Positions 19,601 to 22,672 of a DNA stretch of 64,000 nucleotides are shown piece by piece (the stretch's first letter is position 1; the number at the start of each line of letters is the position of its first letter). A program made the position numbers and the translations under genes. The DNA comes from Gemmatimonadota bacterium (GTDB lineage: Bacteria; Gemmatimonadota; Gemmatimonadetes; Gemmatimonadales; Gemmatimonadaceae), in NCBI GenBank assembly GCA_040388625.1, contig JAZKBK010000003.1, positions 124,001 to 188,000 of the forward strand, given 5' to 3'. Under the pieces are notes generated by a model. The model made no database searches, was not told the DNA's origin, and saw only the letters and a program-made list of their open reading frames with translations.

Positions 19601-19844
19601 CGATGTCGCGAGCAAGAAACGCCATCGGCTTTCCATCGACGCGCAGCTCGGTGCCGGCGATGAGCTTGATACCACGCTCGTCGGCCGCTACTTTCGCTCG
19701 CACGACGCCTCCAAGGTCCGCCGTGTCCGTGATGCCTATTGCCTCGTATCCGAGCCTGGCCGCACGCGATACCAGTGCCTCCGGCGTGACCGCTCCGTCG
19801 CCGAACGAGAACGCGGTATGCGCACGCAGCTCCACGTAAGACAT
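16656..19844 (-). CDS. dnaE2: Error-prone DNA polymerase III alpha subunit, DnaE2 (ImuC)
   Basis: A 1062-residue C-family polymerase of the DnaE2 type, used for mutagenic repair of damaged DNA. The PHP domain ([32 protein letters not shown]) is followed by the catalytic palm with the invariant [19 protein letters not shown]. The C-terminal OB-like domain reads [28 protein letters not shown]. ATG 19844 ([13 protein letters not shown]) overlaps the imuB stop by one base (TGATG), the standard linkage of these genes. Length is normal. DnaE2 works with ImuB, which contacts the sliding clamp. Confidence 0.96.
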   Translation of the reverse strand: [1062 protein letters not shown]

Positions 19845-21148
19845 CAATCCCACCAGCCGTGCAGGTACCACGCGCCATTGCGTCTGTCGCAATACAACCA
19901 GACCAGGCCACTCTCCTCCACGACACAGCGGAAGTAGTCGCGCGCGTAAGCATCGTCCCAGCGGCCACCCGAGACCCGATCCGGACCGGCCGCCTCGACT
20001 ATGTCGTACGTCTTTCCTTCATCACGATACGTACGCGGAATCTCATCGCCGCGTCGCCTGAATGTCGTAACCGAGATGCGCCGCGGCTCGGGCAGGAGCT
20101 GCAGCGTGAGGGCCGACTCGCCGCTGCGTGACAGGGACGCCGCGTAAACGTGTGCTCGCTCCATCACGCGCGTGGCCGATACCGACGTCCACGCGGTACG
20201 GCGATCCAGCAACGGATGCACGCTGTTCTCCGGCTCGACAGCAACAGCGCCCTGATCGTCCATCAACTGTCCCAGCGCTTCCTCGGCGGCCGACTCGCTA
20301 CCGAAGCCACGATCGAATATGTCGCCCTGCCGTCCTCCAGTTCCCGACGTCGAGTCCACGCGCAGCGTGATGCCGGTCACTGCATCGGGGAACACGACGC
20401 GCTCGATCTCCAGGCGCACGAGACGCATCCACGCAGTCTGGCTCGCGGTTGCACGTGCGGCGCGTATCGGATGATCTATCGTCGTACGGTTCGCGAGCGC
20501 GAAGCTGATGGTCACAGCGACGGCCCCCTCGCCGCGCGACTTGAGCGCCTCGCACACGTTGCCGAACAGCGCGTTGATGACGAACACCAGACGCTCCGCG
20601 CGGCGTATCGCGTAATCGGTCCATTCGAGCGAGGCTTCGGGCAACGCACGCGGCATCGATCCGAAGATGCGGCGCGCGTCATCGGCACGTGCGAGCCGCC
20701 AGAGCCGCACTCCCTCGGCGCCGAGTCGCACTTCGACCTCTTCCTGGGAGAGACGCGCAAGATCGCGGCACAGCTCGATGCCGGTTCCGTCGAGCAGATT
20801 GGCGAGCTTGCGATCGGGATTGAGAACCGAGATGGGGAACGGCGCAAGGAAATCGCGATCGTACCCATCACGCACGTACGTGACCGATTGCGGCGAGTGG
20901 CGAGCCGCGACTTCAGCGGCGACCGCGGTCGACGCGACCCCGCACTTCACGCTGCTGTCTATCGCATTGTGCGCGGTGAATGCGTTGCGCACGCGCTCCG
21001 TCGTCTCGCGCACCGGCAATCCGCGCAGATCGGCCCACACGAGATCGCCATCGGACAGCACGCGTGGCACGATCGTGAGGAGCGGCGCGTGCAGCGTGGC
21101 GGGCTGCGATGCGAGCCACGCGAGGTTGTGCAGGCAGAGGAATGACAT
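19844..21148 (-). CDS. imuB: ImuB-like Y-family polymerase homologue
   Basis: A 434-residue ImuB, the non-catalytic Y-family homologue that links DnaE2 to the beta clamp. Recognisable parts are SFLCLHNLAWLASQP at the N-terminus, the little-finger region around residues 200-270, and the C-terminal ImuB domain with GPDRVSGGRWDDAYARDYFRCVVEESGLVWLYCDRRNGAWYLHGWWD, which ends as usual. It is shorter than many ImuB proteins (often near 500), mainly at the N-terminus. Its start codon coincides with the -35 element of the divergent toxin-antitoxin promoter, so it has no normal promoter space of its own. Confidence 0.88.
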   Translation of the reverse strand: MSFLCLHNLAWLASQPATLHAPLLTIVPRVLSDGDLVWADLRGLPVRETTERVRNAFTAHNAIDSSVKCGVASTAVAAEVAARHSPQSVTYVRDGYDRDFLAPFPISVLNPDRKLANLLDGTGIELCRDLARLSQEEVEVRLGAEGVRLWRLARADDARRIFGSMPRALPEASLEWTDYAIRRAERLVFVINALFGNVCEALKSRGEGAVAVTISFALANRTTIDHPIRAARATASQTAWMRLVRLEIERVVFPDAVTGITLRVDSTSGTGGRQGDIFDRGFGSESAAEEALGQLMDDQGAVAVEPENSVHPLLDRRTAWTSVSATRVMERAHVYAASLSRSGESALTLQLLPEPRRISVTTFRRRGDEIPRTYRDEGKTYDIVEAAGPDRVSGGRWDDAYARDYFRCVVEESGLVWLYCDRRNGAWYLHGWWD

Positions 21149-21186
21149 TGACAGGATCGCTATACGGTCATAATCTTATGACCATG
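21148..21186 (+). promoter_or_regulatory. Promoter and perfect palindromic operator of the Phd/VapC pair
   Basis: Consensus TTGACA (21148-21153) and TAATCT (21171-21176) are separated by 17 bp. The -10 element lies in a perfect 18-bp palindrome, GGTCATAA-TC-TTATGACC (21166-21183), that would be the autoregulation site. The first base of the -35 element is the first base of the imuB start codon on the other strand. Confidence 0.82.
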
Positions 21187-21203
21187 GACATATCGAGGTG
21201 ACC

Positions 21204-21527
21204 ATGCCCGCCAGGAAGACCAGAACGACTGCCAAGCCAGCAAAGGCGAGAGCGAAACGTGTTGCAGGAACAGCAGTGCATCCATATGGAACGCGGGACG
21301 AGACGTGGATCTCGGCCAGTGAATTCAAGGCGCGATGCCTGGAGCTCATGGATACCGTGAATGACAGACACGACCAAATCGTCATCACCAAGCACGGGGT
21401 ACCTGTCGCGAAGCTCGTTCCGTTCGAGGAAAAGCGCGTCGGGCTGGTCGGCTCCATGCGCGGCACCGTGCTGTCGTACGGCGACCTCATTTCGCCCATC
21501 GACGTGAAGTGGGATGTCGATGAGTAA
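21204..21527 (+). CDS. Phd/YefM-family antitoxin with basic N-terminal extension
   Basis: A 107-residue antitoxin. The Phd/YefM core begins near residue 34 (TWISASEFKARCLELMDTVNDRHDQIVITKHGVPVAKLVPFE) and normally forms the DNA-binding dimer; the acidic tail (SPIDVKWDVDE) would wrap the toxin. Unusually, a Lys/Arg/Thr/Ala-rich tail of about 30 residues (KTRTTAKPAKARAKR) precedes the core. ATG 21204 is preferred over GTG 21198 because GAGG lies 5 bp upstream. The gene overlaps the toxin gene and is transcribed against the imu cassette. Confidence 0.88.
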   Translation: MPARKTRTTAKPAKARAKRVAGTAVHPYGTRDETWISASEFKARCLELMDTVNDRHDQIVITKHGVPVAKLVPFEEKRVGLVGSMRGTVLSYGDLISPIDVKWDVDE

Positions 21528-21960: not shown

Positions 21961-21961
21961 C

Positions 21962-21975
21962 GACGGGAACCCGTC
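21962..21975. terminator. Short hairpin between vapC and imuA stops
   Basis: GACGGG (21962-21967) and CCCGTC (21970-21975) form a perfect 6-bp inverted repeat with a 2-bp centre, placed exactly between two converging stop codons. There is no T-run, so function as a terminator is doubtful. Confidence 0.25.
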
Positions 21976-21976
21976 A

Positions 21977-22672
21977 TCACCGCTTCCCGCGCCGGTCAGG
22001 TAGATCCACCGACAGCGCCAGCCGCAGCTCATCCCTCCGTACTGCCAGCACCACACGTGCTCTGCGATTCCATCCGAGCGACGATATCCGTACATCCAGT
22101 GTCGCTGCATCCACCACCGCCGCATCGCCGTGCGGATCCCGGCGCCACACGTAACCATGCGGGCGAATTGTCGATGACGCGCGCAGTGCCGATGTAGTTG
22201 CGCTCGACGTGAGCGCGATGCACGCGCTGCCGCTCTCGTGCGCTGCGCGTGAAAGTCGCACGTTCTCGGTTCCTTCCGGATCGGCGCCTGCCAGCACGAC
22301 CACCGCGAATCCGCCCGATCGCAACAGAGCCTCCGCCGCACGCAGGGCGTGAAGCCGGCTCCCTGGGCGTAGCAGCACGGGTCCCGCATCCCAGAAGGCA
22401 CCCGCCATGGTGCCACTACCATCGATCCATACGGCTCGCTCGCCGCCAGCGACGGCGGAGCGGCACGCCGAGCGCAGGACGGCTGTTGCGCCACCACCTG
22501 GAGTCCAGACGGACAGCCGTCCGCGCGGGAATCCTCCGCTCGGAAAGATCCGATCCAGCTCGCCGATCCCGGTTGCCACAACCTCGGTCCGGTGACGCTC
22601 GAGCGGTGCGGCGTCCGGAAATTTGAGATCGAGCAACTCACGTAGATCGCGTAATGCGGATGCGGTGGCCAT
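21977..22672 (-). CDS. imuA: ImuA-like RecA-fold protein
   Basis: A 231-residue ImuA/SulA-like RecA-fold protein, the first member of the imuA-imuB-dnaE2 mutasome. The family pattern ATGIGELDRIFPSGGFPRGRLSVWTPGGGATAVLRSA is at residues 33-70. The P-loop has lost the usual Gly-Lys-Ser/Thr (GGGATAV), so ATP binding is doubtful. The N-terminal ALRDLRELL and the C-terminal RRARVVLAVRRDELRLALSVDLPDRRG are also typical. It is separated from imuB by 830 bp that hold an opposing toxin-antitoxin pair. Confidence 0.85.
   Translation of the reverse strand: MATASALRDLRELLDLKFPDAAPLERHRTEVVATGIGELDRIFPSGGFPRGRLSVWTPGGGATAVLRSACRSAVAGGERAVWIDGSGTMAGAFWDAGPVLLRPGSRLHALRAAEALLRSGGFAVVVLAGADPEGTENVRLSRAAHESGSACIALTSSATTSALRASSTIRPHGYVWRRDPHGDAAVVDAATLDVRISSLGWNRRARVVLAVRRDELRLALSVDLPDRRGKR

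Follow-up and report, generated by a model that had tools for sequence, protein, structure and literature searches.

Operon genes can flank a gene that is transcribed from the opposite strand, as in the Staphylococcus aureus noncontiguous operon menE-menC-MW1733-ytkD-MW1731, in which the inner, opposite-strand gene has its own promoter (review PMC7154746). Two further systems are of related interest. In dinB-yafNO of Escherichia coli, a toxin–antitoxin (TA) locus is linked with the gene of a translesion polymerase and with an SOS promoter (PMC2814082), and in tha/ith of staphylococcal prophages, a toxic RNase system and an opposite-strand gene show mutually exclusive transcription (PMC11087260). 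Here we describe a Phd/YefM-VapC TA pair that lies reversed inside the mutasome gene set imuA-imuB-dnaE2 of a member of the Gemmatimonadaceae. The window, which is the whole 64,000-nucleotide stretch analysed (G000:C3:124001-188000), belongs to a 3.84-Mb genome (G000) from a genus of uncultured soil Gemmatimonadaceae whose close relatives are metagenome-assembled genomes of Gemmatimonadota; G001, G002 and G003 are other species of the genus. To our knowledge none of the imuA-imuB-dnaE2 cassettes known so far contains an inserted TA, and we found no paper reporting a TA inside an imuAB locus.

The layout itself, a TA pair reversed inside imuA-imuB-dnaE2, is real. An initial annotation of this DNA had placed an opposite-strand Phd-VapC pair between imuA and an imuB-dnaE2 unit coupled by TGATG, and coordinates and family searches confirm that order. 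On the sequence evidence we think it fairly probable that the TA has been selected within the mutasome, where it is lodged, and that the mutasome is still one SOS unit by read-through, forming a predicted noncontiguous operon. The first mutasome gene, imuA (21977–22672, minus strand, 231 residues), matches NF033429 (ImuA_translesion, E 7.5e-10) under the curated cut-off of 150 bits; its position and SOS box fit the ImuA identity, and it is 88–100% identical and syntenic in genus mates. The antitoxin gene phd/yefM (21204–21527, plus strand, 107 residues), with an alternative start GTG at 21198 and a Shine-Dalgarno-like GAGGTG upstream, matches PF02604 (PhdYeFM_antitox, 1.8e-10) and overlaps by 14 nt the vapC gene that follows it (21514–21960, plus strand, 148 residues). 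VapC is a PIN-domain toxin (PF01850, 9.9e-15; both matches are above curated cut-offs), and its acidic PIN motifs, LLLDTH, WEIA, DPADR and TRD, are present in three species. By these features phd-vapC is an ordinary type II Phd/YefM-VapC module, with predicted toxicity and predicted relief by the antitoxin, and it forms an opposite-strand unit with its own predicted promoter inside the mutasome gene set. ImuB (19844–21148, minus strand, 434 residues) has no Pfam match and weak Pol IV matches, and appears to have a Y-family fold: the top PDB matches of its predicted model (predicted local distance difference test 76, predicted template modelling score only 0.43) in Foldseek were all Y-family polymerases. 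Its QGD[LI]FD segment, in which QGD-FD is invariant in alignment A1, resembles a clamp motif and suits a predicted clamp-binding site. The error-prone polymerase gene dnaE2 (16656–19844, minus strand) scores 1016 bits against NF004225, for which the curated cut-off is 939.

Upstream of imuA lies a LexA-type SOS box, TTCGGTGTTTGTTCGGTA (22722–22739, minus strand), an 11-bp-period direct repeat that overlaps a −10-like TATATT (22718–22723). A genome-wide count gives 11 copies of the direct repeat TTCGGTN5TTCGG, compared with two for the reversed control, and these include sites before uvrB, recA, ruvB, imuA and gyrB; the lexA promoter holds two further repeats of the same 11-bp period (uvrB, recA, ruvB, gyrB and lexA were named by reading the translated proteins, not by family search). 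TTCGGTN5TTCGG is a likely Gemmatimonadota LexA box, as predicted from these sites, and we found no paper describing an SOS box for this phylum. Loci bearing the box, including L146 and L149–L159, carry it before recA, lexA, uvrB, ruvB, gyrA/gyrB and imuA. Scored with a LexA-box matrix trained on the genomic sites, of which it is one, the imuA box reaches 27.5 bits, the best match in the window and twice the next one. The box is present in all four genus members. As it is of the type common to recA, lexA, uvrB and ruvB, the mutasome promoter is predicted to be LexA-controlled.

By contrast with imuA, the 400 bp upstream of imuB in the window's genus, TA-bearing genomes included, hold no LexA box down to 8 bits. 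An own damage-induced promoter of imuB, which the initial annotation had raised as the counter-case to its proposal, thus finds no support and was rejected. A minus-strand scan, crude for this phylum, gave no sigma-70-like promoter upstream of imuB, and no Shine-Dalgarno sequence precedes the gene, as is expected of a gene relying on an upstream transcript. The minus strand shows no terminator-like site in the imuA-imuB interval, where an intrinsic terminator was searched for and discarded as a candidate, and no known structured RNA was found at the locus.

Relatives mostly have imuA and imuB overlapping or almost abutting (typical gap −47 nt), with the box at imuA only, which supports the statement of the initial annotation that these genes normally form one operon. 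Eleven loci have an imuB with its own box of at least 20 bits within 160 bp; in these, imuB lies apart from imuA or no imuA is seen on the contig (two contigs end short), and an own imuB box was found at none of the loci in which imuA is directly adjacent. The own-box imuB loci form one clade plus L122 on the ImuB tree. At L075, L074, L110 and L122, imuB has gained its own SOS box after parting from imuA, in two places on that tree. Because there is a single box at imuA here and most relatives with a separated imuB have own boxes, read-through is the simplest reading: transcription from imuA into imuB-dnaE2, antisense to the TA, would be the most economical way of bringing imuB-dnaE2 under damage induction.

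The initial annotation had left the conservation of the pair to a comparison of imuA-imuB spacing in related genomes. The TA layout proved conserved in three of the four species of the genus, with the same pair at this exact site and in the same orientation in G002 (ImuB 99% identical) and G003 (89%), and absent in G001 (87%). On the ImuB tree the genomes with the TA group together (support 98/94) and G001 is their sister, so that the TA amounts to one change. With G001 in that position, the tree alone would permit either gain or loss of the TA. The 152-bp imuA-imuB gap of G001, which contains repeats, keeps ATGACCA, a half-operator whose register matches that of the inner operator arm (~4e-5 by chance), and this remnant hints that the G001 line lost the TA. 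Short repeats resembling repetitive extragenic palindromic (REP) elements, of the CGCGAAAGCGGGAAT type (L070:4970-5190, L072:5850-5960), have been inserted in G002 in the space separating vapC from imuA, and the G001 gap is filled by related ones; no such REP-like repeats are present in the window.

Between G000 and G003 the ratios of nonsynonymous to synonymous divergence (dN/dS) are 0.09 for phd, 0.10 for vapC, 0.06 for imuB and 0.07 for dnaE2. Synonymous divergence (dS) in these four genes is 1.1–1.8, that of vapC resembling imuB and dnaE2, and is not reduced in phd and vapC, which argues that there is no added nucleotide constraint. Purifying selection and shared position together show that the TA was inherited with the locus and kept functional. 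A recent random insertion, the other circumstance that the initial annotation had set against its proposal, was rejected: the layout is common to three species, both genes are under selection and flanking direct repeats were not found. It is conceivable that the mutasome is decaying in the genus and that the TA insertion simply broke the operon, given that the imuA-imuB overlap is lost, but all three mutasome genes remain whole in four species, where their omega values are 0.02–0.10, and we regard decay as very improbable.

Several observations weigh against a selected TA crossed by mutasome read-through. Among 39 class genomes with imuA and imuB on one contig, read from tables, an imuA-imuB gap of more than 400 nt occurs in only three genera: the window's (TA), g7, in which the same junction is broken by opposite-strand trpF (phosphoribosylanthranilate isomerase, PF00697; L014, L080, L081; G208), and g5, in which imuA has moved away. 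The layout is thus not specific to toxins, and the tolerance of the junction for insertions weakens the claim that the TA site was selected for coupling. Moreover, imuB in the trpF-split loci likewise has no own box, so the missing box is not proof of read-through, and because own-box imuB genes in relatives mostly lack a clear Shine-Dalgarno sequence too, its absence here has little power to discriminate. G001 manages with no TA. In G002 the insert between vapC and imuA is ~200 bp of hairpin-forming repeats that might terminate transcription, and an antisense stretch that is untranslated or poorly translated makes it a real possibility that Rho could end the transcript. Some of these points favour a different explanation, in which the TA is a passenger at an insertion-tolerant junction, imuB-dnaE2 is expressed from its own weak constitutive promoter in or near the TA, and neither influences the other. 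TA modules are often passengers, and the trpF split, the drifting apart of imuA and imuB in g5 and the TA-less G001 would all be accommodated. However, the sigma-70-like promoter that it calls for before imuB was not found in our scan, itself crude for this phylum, and separated imuB genes in relatives mostly have their own LexA box where the TA genomes have none. We consider this explanation unlikely, though worth keeping in view. With no own box at their imuB either, the trpF-split loci may represent a second noncontiguous mutasome operon, likewise predicted.

The TA promoter described in the initial annotation, TTGACA-N17-TAATCT, is present (21148–21176, plus strand; −35 at 21148–21153, −10 at 21171–21176). 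The −35 starts on the start codon of imuB, with its first T opposite the A of the ATG. The −10, TAATCT, matches only 3/6 consensus positions, and a mechanical promoter scan did not pick up the site. The "perfect 18-bp palindrome" reported over the −10 is indeed a palindrome, but not a perfect one: positions 21166–21183 read GGTCATAA-TC-TTATGACC, with 8-bp arms and an unpaired 2-nt centre (16/18). It is part of a 24-bp palindromic putative operator, TACGGTCATAATCTTATGACCATG (21163–21186, unstranded), which overlaps the module's own −10. The G003 operator is a perfect 24-bp palindrome, TATGGTCATAATATTATGACCATA, from which G000 differs at three places, and the TA promoter of G002 and G003 is TTGMCA-N17-TAATAT. 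Even with 2 mismatches allowed, the pattern has no second occurrence in the 3.84-Mb genome. The 55 bp between phd and imuB are identical at 46/55 positions (84%) between G000 and G003, compared with ~42% expected at neutral sites at that divergence. Together with the uniqueness of the pattern and the recurrence of the arrangement in G002 and G003, this conservation goes beyond chance.

Distant Phd-VapC pairs of the family have palindromes of the same type upstream of phd (GGCCATGATATCATGGCC, TAGCCATATTATTATAGCCATA and others). In several related modules, including a paralogue at G000:C2:88.7 kb, a −35 is followed by 17 bp and then a −10 within the palindrome (TTGCCG-17-TATAAT). This shared design indicates that operator and promoter belong to the TA in the usual way. 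As related modules elsewhere carry the same kind of palindrome, a role as an imuB regulatory site was rejected as its primary role.

The minus strand of the junction also holds an open frame of 270 codons (21168–21980) that covers the entire TA in antisense. It runs from the imuA stop codon, which its start overlaps in G000, and closes 20 nt short of imuB. In all three TA species the frame stays open for 267–280 codons. Comparison with synonymous resampling gave 0.26 in G000 and G002 and 0.02 in G003. A coding role was rejected, as the frame has no family match and is within chance in two of the three species; it is probably a chance frame, which could nonetheless hold ribosomes on a read-through transcript.

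We propose that an autoregulated Phd-VapC module with its own promoter and operator settled at the imuA-imuB junction, on the opposite strand, in an ancestor of the genus, and that selection kept it there. The genes imuA, imuB and dnaE2 would stay one SOS unit, in which LexA release at the single imuA box starts a transcript that continues for ~0.83 kb in antisense to the TA before entering imuB-dnaE2. More speculatively, read-through might lower phd-vapC expression on damage, by RNA polymerase collision or cleavage of double-stranded RNA, and a Phd-VapC complex on the operator, ~15–38 bp upstream of the imuB start codon, might hinder the passing polymerase. The layout, single SOS box, TA-owned operator, conservation and purifying selection can be read from the DNA; a functional coupling of TA and mutasome is plausible. 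A reciprocal antisense switch, in which SOS read-through represses phd-vapC while Phd-VapC near imuB gates read-through, setting an RNase that arrests growth and mutagenic repair against or alongside each other through topology alone, seems to us improbable. About as doubtful, perhaps a shade more so, is the damage-coupled toxin switch envisaged by the initial annotation: SOS read-through would silence phd-vapC, the labile antitoxin would decay and freed VapC would slow translation while the mutasome works, with the TA complex gating imuB. The topology of the locus, the precedents of dinB-yafNO (PMC2814082) and tha/ith (PMC11087260) and the operator conserved just upstream of imuB are consistent with such a switch. 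Yet silencing would cut toxin as well as antitoxin synthesis, making the sign of any growth effect uncertain, the synonymous divergence of phd and vapC is not lowered, and G001 does without the TA.

If the proposed read-through into imuB-dnaE2 is real, the locus would be a noncontiguous operon whose damage-induced mutagenesis genes are transcribed through a TA in antisense. It would offer a simple, testable link between error-prone repair and growth arrest, with the sign reversed relative to E. coli dinB-yafNO. The relatives form a natural experiment: imuA and imuB may overlap, be split by the TA or by trpF, or lie wholly apart, and a second SOS box may be present or absent. By analogy, the TA-in-mutasome arrangement, real and conserved, is kin to known arrangements. 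It resembles the S. aureus noncontiguous operon in that a full-length transcript would be antisense to the inner gene; the present locus has a TA pair inside and an SOS mutasome outside, and its co-transcription is predicted from sequence. In dinB-yafNO, yafNO lies downstream in the same direction, so that damage raises TA mRNA, whereas here the TA is antisense and read-through is expected to lower it; the toxin there is RelE-like, while here it is a PIN toxin. The tha/ith system serves in phage immunity and, unlike the present locus, has an inhibitor as the inner antisense gene and the toxin in the outer operon. The gene content and damage-type promoter are those of imuA-imuB-dnaE2 cassettes such as the mycobacterial mutasome (PMC10421592). 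Finally, compared with type II Phd/YefM-VapC modules, the families, gene order, 14-nt overlap and palindromic operator over the −10 are all alike, and only the location differs.

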